Origin: an uncultured bacterium
GTDB lineage: Bacteria > Patescibacteriota > Patescibacteriia > CAIQCM01
DNA length: 15,195 nt
Assembly: GCA_903870305.1 (NCBI GenBank)
Contig: CAIQCM010000001.1
Span: 1-15,195 of the forward strand
Direction: 5' to 3'
Every line of letters begins with the position of its first letter. Positions within the stretch are counted from its first letter, which is position 1. Under the pieces are notes generated by a model, which did no database searches, was not told where the DNA came from, and saw nothing but the letters and a program-made list of their open reading frames with translations. Below are positions 1 through 8,958 of the stretch, one piece after another. Both the position numbers and the translations under genes were made by a program.

Positions 1-315
1 CGGATCGTTGATTATAAGACCGGCACGCCGAAGAGCGAGGACGACATCGGGTTTGAAGAAAAGCAGCAACTCCTCATCTATCAGGTCGCCTGTCTTGAAG
101 TGCTGGGCAAGAAGCCGTCAGCGCTTACGTTCGTGTATTTGGACAATGGCACGACGGTTGAATTTTTGGGAACCGACAAGGATCTCGATAAAATTCGCGA
201 ATACGTTTCGCGTACGATTGGCGAGATCCGTAAAAGCGATTTTGCCGCCGATCCCAACTTGCATAAATGCAAATATTGCGATTTCAAGGATATCTGCGAG
301 TTTAGAATACTTTAG
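1..315 (+). CDS. PD-(D/E)XK nuclease domain, C-terminal end of a UvrD/AddB-type helicase-nuclease (5' partial)
   Basis: The reading frame is open from base 1 to a TAG at 313-315, so the start lies outside the window. The visible 104 residues open with IVDYKTG, the core D-x-K strand of the PDDEXK_1 fold. QLLIYQ follows about 15 residues later, the usual Q-x-x-x-Y helix of RecB/AddB/Cas4-type nucleases. The end has CKYCDFKDIC, a C-x2-C-x5-C cluster like the C-terminal iron-sulfur cysteines of AddB and Cas4. The fourth cysteine would lie upstream. Family knowledge points to a DNA end-processing nuclease used in recombinational repair, most likely the tail of a UvrD-like helicase. A stand-alone nuclease cannot be excluded. 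The stop codon is the first three bases of a heptad-repeat array. Confidence 0.8.
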   Translation, partial: RIVDYKTGTPKSEDDIGFEEKQQLLIYQVACLEVLGKKPSALTFVYLDNGTTVEFLGTDKDLDKIREYVSRTIGEIRKSDFAADPNLHKCKYCDFKDICEFRIL

Positions 316-380
316 CTTTTAGGTTTTAGCTTTTAGGTTTTAGGAACGTCCTAACAGCTAAAAGCTAACAGCTAAAAGCT
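313..380. repeat. Inverted pair of 7-bp tandem repeats forming a long hairpin
   Basis: The left arm alternates TAGCTTT and TAGGTTT twice, in exact 7-base phase from 313, and starts with the stop codon of the nuclease gene. The right arm alternates CTAACAG and CTAAAAG twice, again in exact 7-base phase, from 351. The arms 314-344 and 350-380 are complementary at 27 of 31 positions, and the A-T pair 345/349 reduces the loop to three bases. The RNA would fold into one long hairpin. There is no T-run after it, so it is not a standard intrinsic terminator. It fills almost the whole gap before the next gene. Confidence 0.85.
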
Positions 381-383
381 CGC

Positions 384-695
384 ATGTCTTTCTCTCCATT
401 AGGAAATTACCTGCCCATGCTCTCCAAACGCCTGATCAATACCCAGGCGGGGATTGCTTTGGCGCTTGAAGCGGGGACGGCATTTATCGCCGCGACCGCC
501 CCGGCGCTTGCCGCGCGGACGCGGCTCGTTAGCGTGGGGCATGGCCGGCTTCACGCCGTCGCCACCTCGGCCCCGGCCAAAGAAGAGCTGCTTTCGTTAA
601 AAGAACCGCTGATTAAAGCCATGAAATCGGCATCAATGATCGAGCTTACCGAGCTTGTGGTCGAGGTTCGCGGCACCCTTGTCGAAGAACAATAA
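384..695 (+). CDS. Small protein, possible DUF721/DciA-like
   Basis: This 103-residue protein has no signal peptide or membrane segment. After residue 25 the pattern is helix (ALEAGTAFIAATAPALAA), then strand-like RLVSVGHGRLHAVAT, then a helix with KEELLSLKEPLIKAM, then ELVVEVRG. This order resembles DUF721/DciA domains, which end in a basic or hydrophobic strand and in many bacteria help load the replicative helicase. The match is by pattern only, and the usual tryptophan of the family is not visible. ATG 384 is used; ATG 417 is an alternative. No Shine-Dalgarno sequence precedes either start. It sits between the nuclease gene and the cell-shape operon, 24 bases before the next start. Confidence 0.5.
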   Translation: MSFSPLGNYLPMLSKRLINTQAGIALALEAGTAFIAATAPALAARTRLVSVGHGRLHAVATSAPAKEELLSLKEPLIKAMKSASMIELTELVVEVRGTLVEEQ

Positions 696-719
696 CTTTG
701 ATAACGTTCGTGTACTAAT

Positions 720-1118
720 ATGTCCTTACGCGCATACTTGGCGGTCATGGGATTTGGCACGATCTTGGCCGGAGCGACGTTTTTTTTGGTGCTTTTTAGG
801 ACCGATCCCGCCACCTCCGGGGCGCTGGGTTTCACGCTTTTTTACGCGAGTTTGGGGCTTACCCTTTGCGGCGCCGTTTCGATCATCGGCTTTCTGCTGC
901 GGGTCATGATGCATCGCGACGAGATGCTCTCGCGGCTTGTCGGCCTTTCTTTCCGGCAGGCGGCGCTGCTTTCGGCGCTTGCGGTCGGCGCGCTCGTCCT
1001 GCGCTCGCACGATCTGCTCTCGTGGTGGAACTGCCTCTTGCTCATTGTCGTCGCGACGGTTGTCGAATTTATTTTCATTTCGCTCGAACGCAAACCTAAA
1101 TCCGCGGAATCGCAATAA
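720..1118 (+). CDS. Four-helix integral membrane protein upstream of mreB (conserved hypothetical)
   Basis: 132 residues with four hydrophobic segments, at about 6-26, 38-60, 76-93 and 101-119, and a short charged C-terminal tail. Distinctive features are RTDP after helix 1, a SFRQAALLSAL motif before helix 3, and SWWNCLLL leading into helix 4, which ends EFIFISLE. I recall this arrangement from unnamed membrane proteins of Patescibacteria, but I know of no experimentally assigned function. It ends two bases before mreB and so is almost certainly co-transcribed with it. A role in envelope or cell-shape control is only inferred from position. Confidence 0.75.
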   Translation: MSLRAYLAVMGFGTILAGATFFLVLFRTDPATSGALGFTLFYASLGLTLCGAVSIIGFLLRVMMHRDEMLSRLVGLSFRQAALLSALAVGALVLRSHDLLSWWNCLLLIVVATVVEFIFISLERKPKSAESQ

Positions 1119-1120
1119 AC

Positions 1121-2164
1121 ATGTTCGCAAAATTCTTTGGATCATTTTCACAGGACTTGGGGATCGACCTTGGCACGGCCAATACTTTGGTGTACTCGCG
1201 CGACAAGGGGATCGTCGTGAACGAGCCGTCGGTGGTCGCGATCAATAATCGCACCGGCCAAGTGCTGGCGGTGGGAAACGCGGCGCGTGACATGATGGGT
1301 AAAACGCCGGCCTACCTAACCACGTCGCGACCGCTTTCAAAAGGGATCATCTCGGATTTTGAGGTAACGGAAAAAATGCTGCGATATTTCATCGACAAAG
1401 TGCACCGCGGCGGGTTTATCATGGCGCCGCGGCCGCGGGTGGTGATCGGCGTGCCGCTCGAGATAACCGAGGTCGAACGCAAGGCCGTCGAGGATGCCGT
1501 GCTTTCGGCCGGGGCGCGAGAAGTGGCGCTGGTCGAGAACACGATGGCCGCCGCGATCGGCGCGCGTTTGCCGGTCAATGAATCGATCGGCACGATGGTC
1601 GTGGATATCGGCGGCGGGACCACCGACATCGCCATCATCTCGATGGCCGGCATTGTCACCTGGAAGTCGTTGCCGGTCGCGGGCGATGAGATGAATCGCA
1701 ATATCGTGCAATACGCGCGCGAACACTTCAACCTCATGGTCGGCGATCGCGTGGCCGAACAGATCAAGATCAGGATCGGCTCGGCCATGCCGCTTGAAGA
1801 GGCCATGCAGATGGAAATGCGCGGCCGCGACCTCATGACCGGCTTGCCGCGCGAGGCCGTGGTGACCGACACGCAGATCCGCGAAGCGCTTTCCCGATCG
1901 CTGCGCCTCATTATTGAGAATATAAAAGCCACGCTTGAAGTGACGCCGCCGGAGTTGGTCGCCGACATTTACGAGCGCGGCATTGTGCTTGTGGGCGGCG
2001 GCGCCATGCTGCGCTCGATCGCCATAGCCGTGAGCGAGGCGGCGCATATTCCCGTCCGGATCGCCGACGATCCGTTAACCTGCGTCGTGCGCGGTTCCGG
2101 GCTGCTTTTGGACGACAAACTTTTGCTTTCGACGATCGCCCTCCCTTCGGCGCGGGCGAATTAG
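1121..2164 (+). CDS. mreB: Rod shape-determining protein MreB
   Basis: 347 residues, normal MreB length. The actin-fold nucleotide site is complete: phosphate-1 motif GIDLGTANT at residues 14-22, phosphate-2 motif VDIGGGTTD at 161-169, and adenosine motif VLVGGGAML at 289-297. MreB polymerises under the membrane and guides lateral peptidoglycan synthesis. The N-terminus MFAKFFGSF is a short hydrophobic, amphipathic stretch of the kind that binds MreB filaments to membrane. The gene starts with ATG two bases after the preceding membrane-protein gene and is followed four bases later by mreC, giving the classical mreBCD order. Confidence 0.97.
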   Translation: MFAKFFGSFSQDLGIDLGTANTLVYSRDKGIVVNEPSVVAINNRTGQVLAVGNAARDMMGKTPAYLTTSRPLSKGIISDFEVTEKMLRYFIDKVHRGGFIMAPRPRVVIGVPLEITEVERKAVEDAVLSAGAREVALVENTMAAAIGARLPVNESIGTMVVDIGGGTTDIAIISMAGIVTWKSLPVAGDEMNRNIVQYAREHFNLMVGDRVAEQIKIRIGSAMPLEEAMQMEMRGRDLMTGLPREAVVTDTQIREALSRSLRLIIENIKATLEVTPPELVADIYERGIVLVGGGAMLRSIAIAVSEAAHIPVRIADDPLTCVVRGSGLLLDDKLLLSTIALPSARAN

Positions 2165-2168
2165 ATAT

Positions 2169-2954
2169 ATGAGAAAGATCCGTTTTGCGCTCGGCGCGGT
2201 CGCGCTCGCGGCCGTCTTCCATTTTATTCCGTTCTTCGATCCGGCGGAGGCGCTGCTTGTGCGCGGTTTTTCGGATATCGGTTACGGCATCAGGAACGGC
2301 GCGCTCGGCATTGGCGCTGCTGCCGAACAAATATTCGCCGCCGGTCGAATTCAAAAAGAGAATGCCGCCCTTTCGGCGCAGATCATCACTTTAAACGAAA
2401 AGGTGGCCGCCGCCGCCTCGCTTACCGCGGAGAACGATTCGCTTAAAGGGCTTTTGGATTTCCGCTCGCGCTCCGGACTCAAACTCATCGCATGCGAGAT
2501 AGTCGGAGCCGATCCCGATACATCCGCTCGCGCGCTCACGATCGATTGCGGCACGGAAAGCAAGGTGACGCGAGGACAAGCCGTCATCACGGGCGACGGC
2601 ACCTTGGTGGGCCGCATTGAACGTGTCGCGAACGGCCGCTCGACCGTGTTGCTTCCAACCGATCCGCGGAGCGCGCTCGCCGTCATGGTTTCTGAACACC
2701 CCGAATCGAACGGCGTGGCGCGCGGCGAGCGCGGCTTGATCATTGCAATGTCGCTTATCCCGCAGCATGCGCCAATATCCTCCGGCGATACGATCGTCAC
2801 CACCGGACGCGAGGAGGGGATGCCGCGCGGCCTTATTCTTGGCACGGTTGAAAGCGTGGTGAGCGTCGCTTCCGACCCGTTTATCTCGGCGACCGTGGCG
2901 CCCGCGATCGAAGCGATCGACCTTACCAAGGTCGCGGTCATTGTTGGGAAATAA
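2169..2954 (+). CDS. mreC: Cell shape-determining protein MreC
   Basis: 261 residues. One N-terminal membrane segment lies at about residues 4-22, followed by an alanine-rich coiled coil at about 55-95 (IQKENAALSAQIITLNEKV). The rest is the extracytoplasmic two-lobed beta domain, with family-typical stretches such as GDGTLVGRIERV, STVLLPTDPRSALAV and TTGREEGMPRGLILGTV. MreC links the MreB scaffold to the elongation synthases, including PBP2, which is encoded two genes downstream. It starts four bases after mreB and ends three bases before mreD. Confidence 0.93.
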   Translation: MRKIRFALGAVALAAVFHFIPFFDPAEALLVRGFSDIGYGIRNGALGIGAAAEQIFAAGRIQKENAALSAQIITLNEKVAAAASLTAENDSLKGLLDFRSRSGLKLIACEIVGADPDTSARALTIDCGTESKVTRGQAVITGDGTLVGRIERVANGRSTVLLPTDPRSALAVMVSEHPESNGVARGERGLIIAMSLIPQHAPISSGDTIVTTGREEGMPRGLILGTVESVVSVASDPFISATVAPAIEAIDLTKVAVIVGK

Positions 2955-2957
2955 CTT

Positions 2958-3485
2958 ATGCGTTTCATTCGCGATATTATCCTGTTTTTTATCGGACTTC
3001 TGCTCGCGCTTTTTTCGGTCGCGCTGGCGCGTTTGGGTTACGGCGCGTTCGGTTTGGTACAAATTCCCATCATCGCTTTGGTAACAATGGTCTTTTTTTT
3101 CAAGGAGAGCCGCCTTGCCGCCCTGACGGCGGGTTTGGGACTGGGTCTTGACGCAATGTCCGCATATCCGTTCTTAACATGGACAATGATCCTCGCCGCC
3201 ACCGCGCTTTTCGGCTGGTATCTGGCGCGCACCGTGCTTACCAATCGTTCGCTGCCTTCGCTTATCATGCTGGGCGTTGCCATGCGGTTCGGATATTTCA
3301 TTTTTGAAATTGCGTTCTCGCGCGCCGCCGAATTTTTTGGCGGAACCGTTTGGTACATGGTTTCCACGATCGACCTGCCGCGCATCTTGGGAGCGTTTGG
3401 GATTGAGTTGGCGGCGCTTGCAGTGATCTTTGTAATTTATGTGCGTTCGCACGGCGAGCGCAGTCGAATGCTTAGCCATTTGTGA
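2958..3485 (+). CDS. mreD: Probable rod shape-determining protein MreD
   Basis: 175 residues, strongly hydrophobic, with about five membrane segments starting at residues 5, 30, 52, 68 and 130. MreD proteins are small and poorly conserved, so the call rests on length, topology and the slot between mreC and a PBP2 gene. Together these make it fairly secure. The family works with MreC in the elongasome membrane complex. A GGGA at 2946-2949 is the only weak Shine-Dalgarno-like sequence seen before any start in this window. The stop overlaps the start of the next gene (TGATG at 3483-3487), consistent with translational coupling. Confidence 0.82.
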   Translation: MRFIRDIILFFIGLLLALFSVALARLGYGAFGLVQIPIIALVTMVFFFKESRLAALTAGLGLGLDAMSAYPFLTWTMILAATALFGWYLARTVLTNRSLPSLIMLGVAMRFGYFIFEIAFSRAAEFFGGTVWYMVSTIDLPRILGAFGIELAALAVIFVIYVRSHGERSRMLSHL

Positions 3486-5461
3486 TGAACATATCAAATA
3501 GTGAACAAAATAATCCCTTTCCGCTGATCGAAGGAAATCTTGGATCTGTGGTCGGCGCAACGGGAGCCGAGACCTGGGTTGAAGAGGCCTATGGCGACGC
3601 TGCGTGGATGCCCTCAAATACGCCTGCCTCCTTTGAATTCATCGGGCTCGCGACTCGACGGCGCCGGGTGATTTTTTTCTTTGTCTGCATGGCCGCGCTT
3701 ATGATCGCGCTTTGGGCCAAGACCGGCGCGCTCATGGCCCAAAGCGGCTCGTTTAAGGCGCGTTCGGACATGAACCGCATTCGCGCCGTCACGACGCCGG
3801 CCGAGCGCGGTATCATCTTTGACGCGAATGGCGTTCAGCTTACCGACAATGTTCCGGATCTTCAGCTCGCGGTCGTGCCGGCCGACCTGCCGGACGACGC
3901 AGCCGCGCGCGCAGCCGCGATCGCGCGCATCGCCGCGCTCGCCGGAATTGATCCGGCCGCTGCCGAAACGACCCTGAATGATTTTGGCATTAAGGGGTAT
4001 CAGCCCGTTACGCTTTCCGCGAACATAAGCCGCGATCAGGCGATCGATCTTACGACCGCGCAGTCCGACATTCCGGCCATACGCATTGTAAACGGCACGC
4101 ATAGGTTCTATCCGCTTACCAATACGCTTACGAGCATGGCCCATTTCTTGGGGTATATGGGGCGGATCACCGCCGACGACCTTAAGAAACCGTCGATCAA
4201 AGATAATTATCAACCGACCGATTCGATCGGCCGCACCGGTCTGGAATACACCTATGAGCATGAATTGGCCGGCACGCCCGGCGTAAAAAAAGTTGAAGTT
4301 GATGCCTCGGGCAACGAGGTCGGTACGGTGGGCGAGACCGCGTCCGTCCCCGGCGAGAACCTGCGGCTGACCATTGACACCGATCTTACGGCCGCCGCCG
4401 AATCGTCGCTCAAGGCGATGATGGCAAAAAATAATCTGACGCGCGGCGCTGTGATCGTCGAAGACGTCAAGACGGGAGGAATACTCACGCTCATCTCATT
4501 GCCGTCGTTCTCGGATAATGATTTTTCCCAAGGGATCTCGAATGCCGAATATAAACAATTGGTGAACGATCCGGATCATCCGCTTTTTAATCGCGCTATT
4601 TCGGGAACTTACCCGCCGGGCTCGACGGCCAAGCTGATGGTTGCTTCCGGCGCGCTCGCCGAAGGCGTGATCACGCCGGAGACAACGGTGGACTCGGTCG
4701 GCGGAATTCATATCGGCGCTTGGTTCTTTCCCGACTGGAAGGCGGGCGGCCACGGCATCACGAACGTCACGCGCGCGATCGCCTGGTCGATCAACACCTT
4801 CTTTTACACGATCGGCGGCGGATACCAATCATTCGTCGGATTGGGTATCGATCGCCTGGACAAATATTTTTCGCTTTTCGGCATTGGCAAGCCGTTGGGG
4901 ATCGATCTGCCGAATGAAGCGGCCGGTTTCGTTCCCACGCCCGCGTGGAAAAAGGCGACCCAAGGCGTCGCATGGTACATCGGCGATACGTACCATGTAT
5001 CAATAGGCCAAGGCGATCTTTTGACCACGCCCTTGCAGATGGCTTCATGGACCGCGACGGTGGCGAACGGCGGCACGGTTTGGCAGCCGCATTTGGCGCA
5101 AGCGTTCTTGGACGATAAAGGCAATGTGATAAAGGTGGTCGAGCCGGTCGCGCAGCGGACGAAGATCGTTGACGATAAATATCTGGAAACCGTGCGCGAG
5201 GGCATGCGCGAGACGGTGACAAGCGGCAGCGCTCAATCGCTTAAGAATGTGGCGATGGACGTGGCGGGGAAGACCGGCACGGCGCAGGTGAGCGGCAAAG
5301 ACAATCATGCATGGTTCACCGGTTTCGGGCCATATGAAGATCCCCAGATCGCTGTCATGGTGCTTATTGAGCAGGGTAAGGAGGGTTCAACCGTCTCGGT
5401 TCCGGTGGCGCGCGATATTTTTGACTGGTGGGCAAAGAACAGGATGAAACATGGAACATAA
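3485..5461 (+). CDS. mrdA: Penicillin-binding protein 2 (elongation-specific transpeptidase)
   Basis: 658 residues from ATG 3485; a GTG at 3482 would add one residue. The cytoplasmic tail is unusually long, about 57 residues, then RRRR and a single membrane anchor at about 60-78. The pedestal domain follows, starting near ERGIIFDANG. The transpeptidase domain carries all three active-site motifs: S-T-A-K with nucleophile Ser380, S-I-N at 435-437, and K-T-G at 596-598. The enzyme cross-links peptidoglycan during sidewall growth, here with MreBCD from the same operon. The RodA polymerase that often follows is absent from the window. The last five codons (M-K-H-G-T) and the stop lie inside a heptad-repeat array, so the extreme C-terminus appears to be repeat-derived. 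Confidence 0.95.
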   Translation: MNISNSEQNNPFPLIEGNLGSVVGATGAETWVEEAYGDAAWMPSNTPASFEFIGLATRRRRVIFFFVCMAALMIALWAKTGALMAQSGSFKARSDMNRIRAVTTPAERGIIFDANGVQLTDNVPDLQLAVVPADLPDDAAARAAAIARIAALAGIDPAAAETTLNDFGIKGYQPVTLSANISRDQAIDLTTAQSDIPAIRIVNGTHRFYPLTNTLTSMAHFLGYMGRITADDLKKPSIKDNYQPTDSIGRTGLEYTYEHELAGTPGVKKVEVDASGNEVGTVGETASVPGENLRLTIDTDLTAAAESSLKAMMAKNNLTRGAVIVEDVKTGGILTLISLPSFSDNDFSQGISNAEYKQLVNDPDHPLFNRAISGTYPPGSTAKLMVASGALAEGVITPETTVDSVGGIHIGAWFFPDWKAGGHGITNVTRAIAWSINTFFYTIGGGYQSFVGLGIDRLDKYFSLFGIGKPLGIDLPNEAAGFVPTPAWKKATQGVAWYIGDTYHVSIGQGDLLTTPLQMASWTATVANGGTVWQPHLAQAFLDDKGNVIKVVEPVAQRTKIVDDKYLETVREGMRETVTSGSAQSLKNVAMDVAGKTGTAQVSGKDNHAWFTGFGPYEDPQIAVMVLIEQGKEGSTVSVPVARDIFDWWAKNRMKHGT

Positions 5462-5528
5462 AACATGAAACATTTTGGCGTCCCGCAGGGCGCAAATAAT
5501 GCTTCATGTTGCGTGTTTCATGCTTCAT
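5444..5528. repeat. Inverted pair of 7-bp tandem repeats forming a long hairpin at the PBP2 3' end
   Basis: The left arm has four heptads in phase from 5444: ATGAAAC, ATGGAAC, ATAAAAC, ATGAAAC. The PBP2 stop TAA lies inside the third. The right arm has four heptads from 5499: ATGCTTC, ATGTTGC, GTGTTTC, ATGCTTC. Arms 5444-5474 and 5498-5528 pair at 25 of 31 positions. The 23-base centre contains a smaller GC-rich hairpin, with CCC pairing to GGG around GCA. No T-run directly follows, so termination would have to depend on the long stem itself. Arm length and repeat period match the hairpin at 313-380, but the words are unrelated. Confidence 0.85.
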
Positions 5529-5537
5529 TTATTCCCC

Positions 5538-5566
5538 TTGACGGACAGGGGGCGATAAGGTAGCTT
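5538..5566 (+). promoter_or_regulatory. Candidate sigma-70-type promoter for greA
   Basis: TTGACG at 5538-5543 differs from the consensus -35 at one position. A 17-base spacer leads to TAGCTT at 5561-5566, a weak -10 that keeps the conserved T, A and final T. The site lies just after the hairpin that follows the cell-shape operon and 28 bases before the greA ATG. This fits a new transcription unit starting here. Confidence 0.45.
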
Positions 5567-5594
5567 ACTTACTTGTTAAGACAACCATCAAGCC

Positions 5595-6050
5595 ATGAAT
5601 AACATCTACATCACCAAAGAAGGTTACGCGAAGCTTAAGAAGGAGCTGGACGAACTGAAGAACGTCCGCCGCAAAGAGATCGCGCTCAGGATCGAGATCG
5701 CCAAAGACATGGGCGACCTCTCCGAGAACGCTGAATACCACGAAGCCAAGGATGAACAGGGTTTTATCGAGGGCCGGATCATGGAGCTTGAACAAATGCT
5801 AGTAAACGCGATCATCATCGAACACAACATGACCGGCTGCGTGAACGTCGGAAACACCGTCCGCGTTTCGGCTAAGGGCAAAGAAAAGGAATATACCATT
5901 GTCGGCGCGAACGAGGCCGATCCCATGGCCGGACGCATTTCGAACGAATCGCCGCTGGGGATCGCCTTCATCGGAAAATGCCCGGGCGACTCGGTCGAAG
6001 TGAAAGTCCCATCGGGCAAGATGGTTTATCACATCATCGCTGTTGTTTAA
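5595..6050 (+). CDS. greA: Transcription elongation factor GreA
   Basis: 151 residues, close to the usual 158. The N-terminal antiparallel coiled coil (about 1-75) carries GDLSENAEY with the tip acidic residues Asp41 and Glu44. These coordinate the catalytic magnesium when GreA enters the RNA polymerase secondary channel. The C-terminal FKBP-like domain (about 80-151) includes the usual IVGANEADP and ISNESPLGIAFIGK segments. GreA rescues backtracked polymerase by stimulating transcript cleavage. It starts with the only in-frame ATG at the expected place, without a Shine-Dalgarno sequence. Confidence 0.97.
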   Translation: MNNIYITKEGYAKLKKELDELKNVRRKEIALRIEIAKDMGDLSENAEYHEAKDEQGFIEGRIMELEQMLVNAIIIEHNMTGCVNVGNTVRVSAKGKEKEYTIVGANEADPMAGRISNESPLGIAFIGKCPGDSVEVKVPSGKMVYHIIAVV

Positions 6051-6061
6051 TAACATTTAGA

Positions 6062-6397
6062 ATGAAATTTTTATTATCAATAAATTATTTGGCTTGGTTA
6101 GTATTATCAGCCGTATTTTTTGCTTTTGGAGAATATTTATCAAAAAAGTTCGCCCTGAGCCCTCGAATATTCTATGTAATAGCGGTGATCGTTGTATATT
6201 CTCTGGGGACGCTTGCATGGCTTCCGGCGATCTTGCAAAAAAATCAATTGTCTCTCGTTGGCACGATCTGGTCTGTCTTGAGTTTGGCGGCTACGGTTTT
6301 GATCGGGTTGTTGATCTTTGGTGAAAAACTGAACATCATGGGTACGATCGGGGTTATTTTTGCGTTCGTAGCGGTCGTCTTTCTTTCATTGGCATAG
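6062..6397 (+). CDS. Small four-helix membrane protein, EamA/SMR-like transporter
   Basis: 111 residues from ATG 6062, with hydrophobic segments at about 4-24, 33-52, 62-84 and 88-110. The layout fits half of an EamA-type drug/metabolite transporter or a full SMR subunit. Helix 1 has FGEYLSKKFALS, resembling the E-x-x-x-T/S-x-x-K end of that helix in the superfamily. Helices 3 and 4 end with LLIFGEKLNIMGTIGVIFAF, close to the superfamily's F-G-E-x-L motif. Such proteins usually act as dimers; the substrate is unknown. The first third is visibly richer in A and T than its neighbours. It follows greA by 11 bases and ends in a terminator-like hairpin. Confidence 0.75.
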   Translation: MKFLLSINYLAWLVLSAVFFAFGEYLSKKFALSPRIFYVIAVIVVYSLGTLAWLPAILQKNQLSLVGTIWSVLSLAATVLIGLLIFGEKLNIMGTIGVIFAFVAVVFLSLA

Positions 6398-6422
6398 ACC
6401 ATATTGTACGGTCAATTTTTTT
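6397..6422 (+). terminator. Probable intrinsic terminator after the EamA/SMR-like gene
   Basis: GACC at 6397-6400 pairs with GGTC at 6410-6413. Two further A-T pairs lie inside past one mismatch, and the loop is short. A run of seven T residues follows at 6416-6422. The stem is short, so termination may be partial. Confidence 0.5.
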
Positions 6423-6426
6423 AGAA

Positions 6427-6440
6427 AATCTTTAAAGATT
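6427..6440. promoter_or_regulatory. Perfect 14-bp palindrome next to a start codon
   Basis: AATCTTTAAAGATT is its own reverse complement. It ends one base before the ATG at 6442 and occupies the place of the ribosome binding site. It could be a repressor operator or an RNA hairpin that limits translation. It is AT-rich, so chance is possible. Confidence 0.35.
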
Positions 6441-6441
6441 C

Positions 6442-7023
6442 ATGAACATCTCATATATCATTAAACCGGCCAAATGGTCGCGCCGAGTGAGGATCGCGGT
6501 TTCCGGCGGGCGCGTGATCGTGACCGCCCCAATGCGCATTAGCAAAGAACATTTGGATCGCATTGTCGCCAGCCACGAGGCGTGGATAGAGCGGGCTATT
6601 CGTAAACATGAAAAATTGACCGCCGGCATAAGGTTGGCGCACGACGAATTTGATCATCGCGAATTCGCATCAATGGCAAAAGCCATGGTTAAAGACCGTT
6701 ATTCAACGATCGCCGCGCCGTGCGGCGTTCGGTTGGGAAAAATAAGCGTGAAAAAAATGCGTTCGCGCTGGGGCAGCTGTTCCGGGCAGGGGAACATCTC
6801 GATCAACCTGCTGCTTGGGCACTTGCCGCCCGAGTTGCTCGAGTACGTGGTCGTTCATGAGCTGTGCCATCTCGTCCACCACGATCACTCAAAGCGTTTT
6901 TGGTCGCTTGTTGCCGCGAGCGAACCGGCGTTTAAGGCGCGCAAAGCTGAACTGCGCCGCTACAGCCATTTTCTCGCCAGCGCCGATATTCCTCGCAGCG
7001 CGGACGCGGATATGGTTAAATGA
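6442..7023 (+). CDS. YgjP-like zinc metallopeptidase domain protein (DUF45/M48-related)
   Basis: 193 residues, cytosolic in appearance. The diagnostic motif HELCHLVHHDHSKRFW begins at residue 139. It supplies the zincin HExxH (His139, Glu140, His143) and the third ligand His149 ahead of the FW pair. MRSRWGSCS upstream is also characteristic of YgjP/DUF45 proteins. The fold is that of a small metalloprotease, but its substrates are poorly known in the family. The stop overlaps the next gene's ATG (ATGA at 7020-7023), so the two are probably translated together. A palindrome takes the place of the ribosome binding site. Confidence 0.9.
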   Translation: MNISYIIKPAKWSRRVRIAVSGGRVIVTAPMRISKEHLDRIVASHEAWIERAIRKHEKLTAGIRLAHDEFDHREFASMAKAMVKDRYSTIAAPCGVRLGKISVKKMRSRWGSCSGQGNISINLLLGHLPPELLEYVVVHELCHLVHHDHSKRFWSLVAASEPAFKARKAELRRYSHFLASADIPRSADADMVK

Positions 7024-8342
7024 ATTGTCATATGTCAGATAAACTAGAAATCAGCGGACAATTTCAGGATGCCTATGAAGCAATGGAGCGCGGGAACAAA
7101 CATATATTCCTGACCGGGAAAGCGGGGACGGGGAAGTCCACGCTTTTGCGTTATTTCCGCGAGCGCACGCGGCGCGCGACAGCCGTGGTTGCGCCCACCG
7201 GGGTGGCGGCGGTCAACATCGACGGTCAAACGATCCATTCATTCTTCAAGCTGCGGCCGGGCGTGACGGTCGACGAAGCGCGGCATGACGGACGCGCGGC
7301 GCGGAAAGATCAGCTGTTTCAAAAGATCGAGACGATCATCATTGATGAGGTCTCCATGGTTCGCGCCGACCTCATGGACTGCATTGATGCATTTTTACAG
7401 TCAGCGCTAAAAAGCAAAGCGCGGTTCGGCGGCAAACGTCTCGTCATGATCGGCGACCTGCATCAATTGCCGCCCATTGTGCGCGGTGAAGAAGCGGCTG
7501 AGCTTAAAAAGAAGTATACAACGCCTTTCTTCTTTTCATCCGAAGCGATCCGCGATTGTTTGCAACTTGGCATGCTTGAACATATCGAGCTAACGAAGAT
7601 ATATCGTCAGACCGACGAACGGTTCATTGAGATATTAAATGCGGTTAGATGCGGAAATATTTCAGAACGCCAGTTGGCCGAGCTGAATATGCAATACGAT
7701 CCGGAGTTTTCTGATAAAGATGGCAAACATATGCATCTCATGGCGGTTAACGCTCAAGCTGATGATCATAATGAAACAAATTTGGAACGTCTGGGCGGGA
7801 AGGTAGCGATCGCCGAGGGAAAGATAAAAGGCGAGTTTAAAGAGAGCGAATTGCCAACCGATCTTGAATTGCGCCTAAAGAAAGGTGCGCGCGTCATGTT
7901 GGTCAATAACGACTCCCAGGGCCGTTGGGTGAACGGCACGCTGGCAAGCGTGCTGGAAGTTCGCGACGAATCAATCGACGTCAAGCTGGATAATGGTGAG
8001 GTGCTTGAAATTCTTCCGTATACATGGAATAAAGCAAAGACGAAATTCAATCAAGAGTCGGGCGAACTTACGCGAGAAACGCTCGGCAGTTTTACGCAAT
8101 TTCCATTGCGTCTGGCTTGGGCCACAACCATCCATAAGAGCCAGGGCAAGACCTTTGACCGGGTCGTGATCGACCTTGGTCGCGGTGCCTTTGCCGCCGG
8201 ACAATCATACGTCGCTCTCTCGCGCTGTCGGACGCTCGATGGGATCACGCTGAAGCGCCCGGTGCGGCGATCAGACCTCATCATGGATGAACGAATTTTA
8301 CAGTTTGCAAAAGAGTTTGGTGAAAAGAGGGGGACGATATGA
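7020..8342 (+). CDS. PIF1-like superfamily 1B DNA helicase
   Basis: 440 residues. Walker A GKAGTGKST is at 33-41, motif Ia is in APTGVAAVNIDGQTIHSFF, Walker B IIIDEVSM has Asp109-Glu110, and motif III is GDLHQLPPIV. The C-terminal part has TIHKSQGKTFDRVVIDLG and SYVALSRCRTLDGI, the SH3-like and motif V/VI signatures of PIF1 and RecD2. The family unwinds DNA 5' to 3' at R-loops, G-quadruplexes and stalled forks. The protein ends about 40 residues after motif VI, so it lacks the C-terminal additions seen in some bacterial PIF1 proteins. ATG 7020 overlaps the preceding stop; ATG 7032 is an alternative start. Confidence 0.93.
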   Translation: MNCHMSDKLEISGQFQDAYEAMERGNKHIFLTGKAGTGKSTLLRYFRERTRRATAVVAPTGVAAVNIDGQTIHSFFKLRPGVTVDEARHDGRAARKDQLFQKIETIIIDEVSMVRADLMDCIDAFLQSALKSKARFGGKRLVMIGDLHQLPPIVRGEEAAELKKKYTTPFFFSSEAIRDCLQLGMLEHIELTKIYRQTDERFIEILNAVRCGNISERQLAELNMQYDPEFSDKDGKHMHLMAVNAQADDHNETNLERLGGKVAIAEGKIKGEFKESELPTDLELRLKKGARVMLVNNDSQGRWVNGTLASVLEVRDESIDVKLDNGEVLEILPYTWNKAKTKFNQESGELTRETLGSFTQFPLRLAWATTIHKSQGKTFDRVVIDLGRGAFAAGQSYVALSRCRTLDGITLKRPVRRSDLIMDERILQFAKEFGEKRGTI

Positions 8343-8377
8343 ATGAACGAATATCTAATGTCTAATATCTAATCCGT
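8343..8377. repeat. 7-bp tandem repeat after the helicase stop
   Basis: AATATCT, AATGTCT and AATATCT run in exact 7-base phase from 8350 to 8370. Degenerate copies flank them: ATGAACG just after the stop codon, and AATCCGT after. No complementary arm is nearby, unlike the arrays near 313 and 5444. The array lies between the stop and the terminator hairpin. Confidence 0.7.
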
Positions 8378-8380
8378 ATT

Positions 8381-8413
8381 TAAAACATCCTTCAGCGATT
8401 GAAGGATGTTTTA
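8381..8413. terminator. Bidirectional intrinsic terminator between converging units
   Basis: A perfect 14-bp stem (8381-8394 with 8400-8413) encloses the loop GCGAT. Each arm ends in a TTTTA or TAAAA tract, so a U-rich tail is present on both strands. It lies between the plus-strand helicase and the minus-strand DUF5666 gene and should end transcription from both sides. Confidence 0.9.
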
Positions 8414-8425
8414 AAATTCTGCTTC

Positions 8426-8899
8426 TTATTTTCCTTGTACCGGAGCGGGTTGACCGCCCGGGACGCCGGGGGTGACGGAGCCGGCTGGACGGATCTGGAT
8501 GTTCGTCGCGGTCACGGTGCCGTCGGGGTTTGCCGTGCCGTTAACCATGACATTCTCACCCACCGTAAGATCGGCGGCGGTGCCCGAGGTGGTTTTGCCG
8601 ATCGCGGTTGAAGGCGCGAAGAAAACGATCTGCGAGCCGCCGGCGCGATTCTTCACCGTGATGCTTTTGGCATCAACCGACAAGATATCGCCATTCACAA
8701 ATCCGCTACCGCCTCGGAGCCGCGCGCCAGCCGCGCCGCCCGGCGTATTACTATTTCCGCGCATACCCGCGAATTGTCCGCTTGTTGGTCGTGCGGGTGA
8801 GAGCGATTGTCCGTATTTCATGCCGCCGAAAAATCCGCCGCCGCCCGCAATGACGAGGGTTACAACGATCGCGATAATAAGATTTTTTGATGCCTTCAT
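8426..8899 (-). CDS. Membrane-anchored DUF5666 protein, last gene of the exporter operon
   Basis: 157 residues. A short basic start (MKASKN) leads into a single hydrophobic segment at about 7-27 (IIAIVVTLVIAGGGGFFGG), which is either an anchor or a signal peptide. A Gly/Ala/Arg-rich linker runs to about 65. The DUF5666 beta domain follows, with VNGDILSVDAKSITVKNRAG, then VGENVMVNGTANPDGTVTA and TNIQI, and a Pro/Gly-rich tail. The domain resembles an OB-like barrel of unknown function, here facing outside. It lies 61 bases after the permease gene; that gap holds a heptad-repeat array. A second DUF5666 gene lies upstream in the same operon. Confidence 0.8.
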   Translation of the reverse strand: MKASKNLIIAIVVTLVIAGGGGFFGGMKYGQSLSPARPTSGQFAGMRGNSNTPGGAAGARLRGGSGFVNGDILSVDAKSITVKNRAGGSQIVFFAPSTAIGKTTSGTAADLTVGENVMVNGTANPDGTVTATNIQIRPAGSVTPGVPGGQPAPVQGK

Positions 8900-8927
8900 A
8901 TGATTATTGTTATTATTTAATATTTAT

Positions 8928-8958
8928 TTGGAAATTGGTTCTTGGTTCTTGGTTGTTG
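8928..8958. repeat. 7-bp tandem repeat after the permease stop
   Basis: On the plus strand TTGGAAA, TTGGTTC, TTGGTTC and TTGGTTG run in exact 7-base phase from 8928, followed by TTG. Read in the direction of transcription, repeated GAACCAA words begin two bases after the permease stop codon. No complementary arm is close by. The following bases, up to the next start, are very AT-rich. Confidence 0.75.

Follow-up and report, generated by a model that had tools for sequence, protein, structure and literature searches.

Tandem repeats with a unit of seven bases (heptads) have been described in several bacterial groups. In Geobacter metallireducens, four tandem heptads (GGGACCG, named Gmet_H4) occur at 49 inter- and intragenic places, the class 3 sites have five heptads in tandem and are depicted as strand-switching sequences, and the 'global regulator binding sites' of classes 1 and 2 form opposite-strand pairs at variable distance; binding of a regulator or a role as regulatory RNA was proposed by the authors (PMC2700814). 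The GGGAATC repeats of Xanthomonas mostly have four units, are often inverted and lie mainly between co-oriented genes. The account of them, which also covers the GGGGA(C/T)T repeats of Nostoc, gives 70 and 75 inverted pairs and places many repeats less than 50 bp from a stop codon or over it; sequence variation at shared positions was found between two species (PMC4692102). The same account mentions the short tandemly repeated repetitive sequences (STRR) of filamentous cyanobacteria, which are tandem heptanucleotides with three words in Calothrix. The TAACTGA heptads of Beggiatoaceae are mostly intergenic, and in forward orientation they carry stops in every frame and extend over the stop codons of 13 open reading frames (ORFs); heptanucleotides are also given there, after Mrazek, as the most abundant class of long simple sequence repeats in most genomes (PMC4679880). 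Here we describe heptad arrays on a contig of an uncultured bacterium of the Patescibacteriota (CAIQCM010000001.1, assembly GCA_903870305.1).

The window, 15,195 nucleotides long, is the entire contig C1 of this genome (G000; 947,774 bases in 160 contigs). By identity, the closest matches to its MreB are from genomes of Patescibacteria, several of which carry the names Uhrbacteria, Magasanikbacteria or Falkowbacteria. A preliminary description of it reported four arrays of 7-base words, each with a stop codon inside it or at its edge. Both the arrays and the stop codons lie where they had been placed, and Tandem Repeats Finder assigns period 7 to positions 311-344, 351-380, 5444-5473, 5499-5528, 8350-8373 and 8935-8958. 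The reading as 7-base words is therefore sound, with the correction that arrays 1 and 2 each form a hairpin with heptads in both arms. That the words differ between sites is right insofar as there are many words, but they are not unique to a site, since the family of each array recurs elsewhere in the genome. We consider it probable that the arrays belong to four families (A-D) of short dispersed hairpin repeats at the DNA level that are tolerated at gene boundaries. Each arm is about four tandem heptads (about 30 bp), present singly or as an inverted pair that forms a hairpin. The window holds the following features:

311..344, plus strand: left arm of array 1, family A (TTAGCTT/TTAGGTT); the TAG stop (313-315) of the upstream gene is part of it
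351..380, minus strand: right arm of array 1, inverted partner of 311-344
5444..5473, plus strand: left arm of array 2, family B (ATGAAAC type); codes the final residues and the TAA stop (5459-5461) of a PBP2-type gene
5499..5528, minus strand: right arm of array 2; on the minus strand its third heptad reads ACGCAAC, which family B arms also have at four further sites
8350..8376, minus strand: array 3, a single arm of family C, with a CGGA flank at 8373-8376
8928..8958, plus strand: array 4, a single arm of family D, TTGGAAA TTGGTTC TTGGTTC TTGGTTG TTG
5477..5493, no strand given: inner stem-loop of array 2, rich in GC and flanked by the two arms
8380..8416, no strand given: ordinary separate stem-loop with A/T tails, terminator-like, adjoining array 3

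The arms of array 1 pair as a hairpin with a minimum free energy of about -37 kcal/mol when 20-base flanks are included. In array 2, 5444-5473 pairs with 5499-5528 around the GC-rich inner stem.

Period, families and arm length

The survey covered 327,853 bases of G000, 570,131 bases of the single congener available for comparison (G001) and 80 named MreB loci (1.32 Mb), 67 of which were treated as Patescibacteria, some being titled only 'bacterium', and 13 as others. Some contigs had been picked for holding a word, namely C34, C55, C64, C105, C127 and C132 of G000, on which the family A word was found again, and C35, C39, C57, C63, C64 and C143 of G001. The main counts were repeated without them, and the period picture barely changed.

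Period 7 and its multiples dominate the short tandem arrays in both genomes and in the named loci. The comparison with other periods that the preliminary description had suggested bears this out, with counts far above what chance would give: 40 contigs of G000 (230,305 bases) have 31 segments of period 7, 17 of period 14 and three of period 21, and none or one at each remaining period in the range 4-24. When these contigs were shuffled once with an order-2 Markov model, the only segment obtained was one at period 24. At score 14, 60 contigs of each species have 37, 19 and 4 segments (G000, at most one elsewhere) and 20, 8 and 3 segments (G001, four at period 12 and at most two elsewhere) at periods 7, 14 and 21. 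The named loci have 55, 34 and 7 at these periods, seven at period 8 and no more than five at the rest; an array (score 12) is present in 20 of the 67 patescibacterial loci and in 5 of the 13 others.

Family D has the form TTGGAAA-TTGGTTC-TTGGTTC-TTGGTTN-TT, family C the form CGGA-TTAGATA-TTAGACA-TTAGATA-TTAGATA-TT and family B the form ATGAARC-ATGAAAC-ACGCAAC-ATGAAAC-ATT. The exact 23-base core of D is found 31 times in G000 and six times in G001, and the exact 22-base core of C 18 and four times, while both are absent from a sample of 283 further genomes of the class; the reversed patterns of both cores gave no matches. Arms of family C retain the heptad order and the CGGA flank at 12 listed loci, at least one of which is not an array (p=0.008). 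The third heptad of family B, ACGCAAC, is shared by four sites on L040, L152 and L154 and the right arm of array 2; a p value for the order in this family was not used, and only listed arms were considered, because a loose pattern drew many non-array sites (45 'loci'). These exact cores, the fixed order and flank and the shared ACGCAAC show that whole arms have been copied; families D, C and B are each dispersed over many loci. The earlier argument that changing words speak against copies of a mobile repeat is thus not borne out. A virus as carrier of D was considered and dropped, as viral contigs contain no exact match.

A dispersed repeat of another kind, about 100-130 bp long, was seen at L121:2087-2215. 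It is palindromic, with matches in both orientations, and has matches in L007, L025, L026 and L027. It occurs in both species, and in L027 it fills a junction where the congener has a heptad array.

Arms typically contain 3.5-4.5 heptads, the commonest length being 31 bp (27 of 235 arms). At score 11, the class of 4.5 copies is the largest in G000 (26 of 71 arms), in G001 (12 of 37) and elsewhere (32 of 92), followed by 3.5 copies with 19, 5 and 19 arms, and more than five copies are present in 3, 2 and 15 arms, respectively. With a lower score threshold there are more short arrays, and both peaks remain; the hump is thus seen at two thresholds, although the threshold itself drops short arrays, and the control periods have too few arrays for a comparison of shape (14 at period 8 in the named loci). 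A strong inverted repeat is present in 67 of 112 array-bearing junctions between co-oriented genes (25 of 35 in G000, 15 of 23 in G001, 27 of 54 elsewhere). The other 45 lack a strong hairpin, and single arms are common. In canonical form there are 26 words in 71 arms of G000 and 16 in 38 arms of G001. The four commonest in G000 (AACCAAG, AAACATG, AATATCT and AACGATG) contain no GGG or CCC, so the runs of at least three G per unit that a G-quadruplex needs are missing from them; a few rarer words have such runs.

Replication slippage, in which a polymerase-set step of 7 nt makes each array independently on the spot, was proposed by Mrazek et al. 2007, as given in PMC4692102 and PMC4679880. It would explain the prevalence of period 7 in a number of unrelated lineages whose words differ, and the two-heptad (14-bp) sub-periods of array 1, which are not the same in the left and the right arm, fit it as well. 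Nevertheless, slippage in situ is an unlikely source of these arrays when long exact cores with fixed flanks and a shared heptad order recur at many loci, when copy number shows a hump instead of a steady fall, and when arms come as inverted pairs.

Position relative to genes

Placement was counted in spacers of 40-400 bp in G000 and G001. Genes were called with a custom codon-usage script, which gave 77% coding sequence at first and 89% after a change, and some junctions are therefore wrong; a small gene at about 6061-6397 is an example of a miss. Arrays are present in 53 of 321 junctions between co-oriented genes compared with 9 of 137 others (p=0.004; p=1.4e-4 when stratified with the named loci; 44 of 285 compared with 7 of 122, p=0.005, without the selected contigs). 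Convergent junctions, which have two 3' ends, do not differ from divergent ones (5 of 69 and 4 of 68 with arrays).

Among the 112 array-bearing co-oriented junctions, 68 arrays are nearer to the upstream stop codon and 41 nearer to the start codon; 30 overlap the stop and seven the start, with median distances of 6 and 24 bp. The preference for stop codons is in this sense real, but it is not significant in the 62 junctions with room to spare, where 35 arrays are nearer to the stop (p=0.37). One hairpin (L040:7350-7428) fills the gap between a tRNA-Met gene (7273-7347) and a tRNA-Leu gene (7430-7512), where there is no stop codon. With the similar frequency at convergent and divergent junctions and the arrays inside genes, this gives no support to the idea that a process at gene 3' ends makes or keeps the repeats. 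We attribute the position at stop codons to short spacers, to the room that a start codon needs and to frame logic. Because 7 equals 3n+1, a word with a stop triplet closes all three frames, as MacGregor already stated for TAACTGA (PMC4679880). Copies would land widely, and those with stop-triplet words would be lost within ORFs and persist only beyond them or at their ends. That would be a plain reason why arrays abut stop codons. Words with stops on both strands are more frequent than after shuffling of their letters in G000 (26 compared with 11.5 of 59) and in G001 (23 compared with 7.9 of 34). A 'universal stop cassette' as the selected function was rejected, since other lineages show no such excess (16 compared with 14.3 of 63).

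Arrays free of stops are also found in frame within genes. Family D has Pfam-supported hosts in rplV, rsmA, a FemAB-type gene (two copies), ileS, dnaX and a DUF4012 gene, and a Sua5/YrdC gene, also supported by Pfam, hosts an array of CGAGTTG type; Pfam gave no match for 3 of the 10 array-bearing proteins tried. Nine D copies within genes of the two genomes (G000 and G001) were translated, and in every one the reading is GAACCAA, with KNQEPRT or TTKNQEPIS-like peptides as the product. The copy in rsmA corresponds to residues 136-146, where alignment to a solved KsgA-type enzyme needs six extra residues, and rsmA of G001 has a D-like stretch at the same place. The copy in rplV sits in a tail beyond the Pfam domain, and this tail shows poor conservation in the congener. 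In the linker of dnaX (L026:4473-4654), consecutive repeat-like insertions were observed: a D array, a stretch translated as VIANSEATKQSH and an ATTCGAC array whose product is FDIRHST. Such copies offer a route by which repeats add short hydrophilic segments to conserved proteins. Rickettsia palindromic elements are likewise short palindromic repeats found in frame within proteins and between genes; to our knowledge, they do not consist of heptads.

Word turnover and upkeep of the hairpins

The sampled part of G001 contains the orthologues of 55 out of 253 junctions in G000. Both species have arrays (score 8) at 10 of these 55, G000 alone at 10, G001 alone at one and neither at 34 (p=5.5e-5; p=1.6e-3 at score 10), and periods 5, 6 and 8-13 show no coincidence at orthologous junctions. 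The words often change between the sister species while the 7-letter rhythm and the layout stay: in the 10 junctions with arrays in both, they were judged different in seven and alike in three, two of which are D. At the place of array 1, the congener has TAGGGAT/CTAACCC types instead of TAGCTTT/CTAAAAG, with the phase of TAG kept. At L024/L190, most inner heptads have changed from TTAG to ACAG in both arms, and the outermost are unchanged. A miniature inverted-repeat transposable element (MITE) would have a target-site duplication and a parental transposon with the same ends. Counterpart sites without a hairpin also exist in the congener, although divergence blurs their ends; the array junctions L022, L040:4656 and L152:4497 of G000 correspond to congener spacers of -3, -1 and 5 bp.

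Two further observations concern the congener. At the counterpart (L196) of L040:1743-1921 it has a very long hairpin that is not heptadic, where G000 has a C arm. At L184:3835-4593, ARAGORN calls an unusually long permuted transfer-messenger RNA with an odd tag peptide, which may be a false call.

Stable hairpins by stop codons, mostly between co-oriented genes and some of them enclosing a GC-rich stem, are what would be expected of RNA stem-loops at mRNA 3' ends or between cistrons, selected on RNA pairing for termination, processing or stability. Stems of this kind tolerate G-U in the transcribed strand. The sense-strand mismatches in the 67 heptad hairpins are 165 G-U and 205 A-C (156 and 186 without the selected contigs), whereas 234 terminator-like hairpins from the same loci, scored in the same way, have 107 G-U and 42 A-C (p=1e-7). 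The heptad hairpins thus show no sign of stems kept by pairing of the sense RNA. Convergent junctions are not enriched and single arms are common, and an origin as selected RNA stem-loops is improbable.

The complementarity of the arms is instead probably kept at the DNA level, by template switching between arms, which is able to create and mend stems (PMC8794818), and by gene conversion between loci. A locus could then keep its hairpin while its words are replaced. Searches for SbcD, Y1_Tnp and RVT_1 covered 51 genomes (those of 49 of the 80 named loci, G000 and G001). SbcD over the cut-off was found in none of the 51 (sub-threshold matches in six) compared with 8 of 14 control genomes, and SbcD therefore does not set array-poor genomes apart within the 51. 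At most, the absence of SbcCD may be permissive.

Mobilisation by a Y1 transposase, as in repetitive extragenic palindromic (REP) elements and their REP-associated tyrosine transposases (RAYT), would agree with short dispersed hairpins that are mostly intergenic and with the one Y1_Tnp match each in G000 and G001. Y1_Tnp was present, however, in 15 of 20 genomes with arrays in the sampled locus and in 17 of 29 without (p=0.36), and it was not found in five array-bearing draft genomes. The transposase was therefore rejected as mobiliser, and a REP-like origin is very improbable. A reverse transcriptase was rejected as well, RVT_1 being present in 25 of the 51 genomes and in neither G000 nor G001. 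Binding sites of a DNA-bending or regulatory protein (IHF/HU), as proposed for the Geobacter repeats, would account for the set arm length and for paired sites on opposite strands; many unrelated words and their change at orthologous places fit a single specificity poorly, and with D copies lying within ORFs there is hardly any likelihood of such a role.

Several points weigh against dispersed hairpin repeats. No mobilising enzyme was found, as Y1_Tnp and RVT_1 do not track the arrays, and target duplication was not shown. Heptad order is not significant in family F (p=0.14), and p values are optimistic because arms within a family are related. Spacer length confounds the orthologue result: when both spacers are at least 40 bp, the counts are 9, 3, 1 and 2 (p=0.24). 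Finally, dispersal by itself does not account for words that change while the position stays the same, and a further process is needed.

Relation to described heptad repeats

The statement that no described class is known for such arrays needs correction in view of the repeats published for Geobacter, Xanthomonas and Beggiatoa, although among the literature matches listed none reports heptad repeats in Patescibacteria in its title or abstract, in a search with subscription papers and preprints mostly outside its coverage. The arrays share with the Geobacter repeats the heptad unit, about four units per array, opposite-strand pairs and positions in and between genes, and with the siting at co-oriented genes these are the marks of the Geobacter and Xanthomonas type. 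They are therefore a variant of a known but unexplained kind of repeat.

The differences lie in the words and their layout. Units of about eight or five bases are used in classes 1, 2 and 4 of Geobacter, and the account of them, as far as it goes, describes no change of word at orthologous places (PMC2700814). Xanthomonas and Nostoc have one family of G-rich words, explained by G-quadruplexes, where mostly AT-rich words in several coexisting families are found here. The Beggiatoaceae repeats, unlike these hairpins, consist of one word, lie mostly just upstream of start codons and are hardly ever inverted pairs (169 direct, one indirect; PMC4679880). STRR are alike in being tandem heptads, with a hairpin layout that is described here and not in the account of them (PMC4692102). 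New here are several families per genome, AT-rich words with similar arm length, words that change at loci shared by sister species, and a test of stem mismatches that speaks against RNA pairing.

The earlier reports, as far as their accounts go, each concerned one word or genome, with an explanation of its own (slippage, G-quadruplex, regulator sites or translation). A wider but rather doubtful alternative is that an unrecognised enzyme system, spread across unrelated phyla and indifferent to the word, produces arms of about 30 bp by writing or copying some four steps of 7 bp each, from lineage-specific and changing word libraries, and that words are replaced at fixed hairpin loci. It would be a structure-conserving repeat system, and the accounts based on G-quadruplexes, regulator sites and slippage would each be one lineage's version of it. 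One small genome holds several families that resemble each other in arm length and hairpin layout, and its sister often has other words at the same places; the architecture can thus be separated from the sequence, and the question of why the unit is seven becomes testable by comparative genomics.

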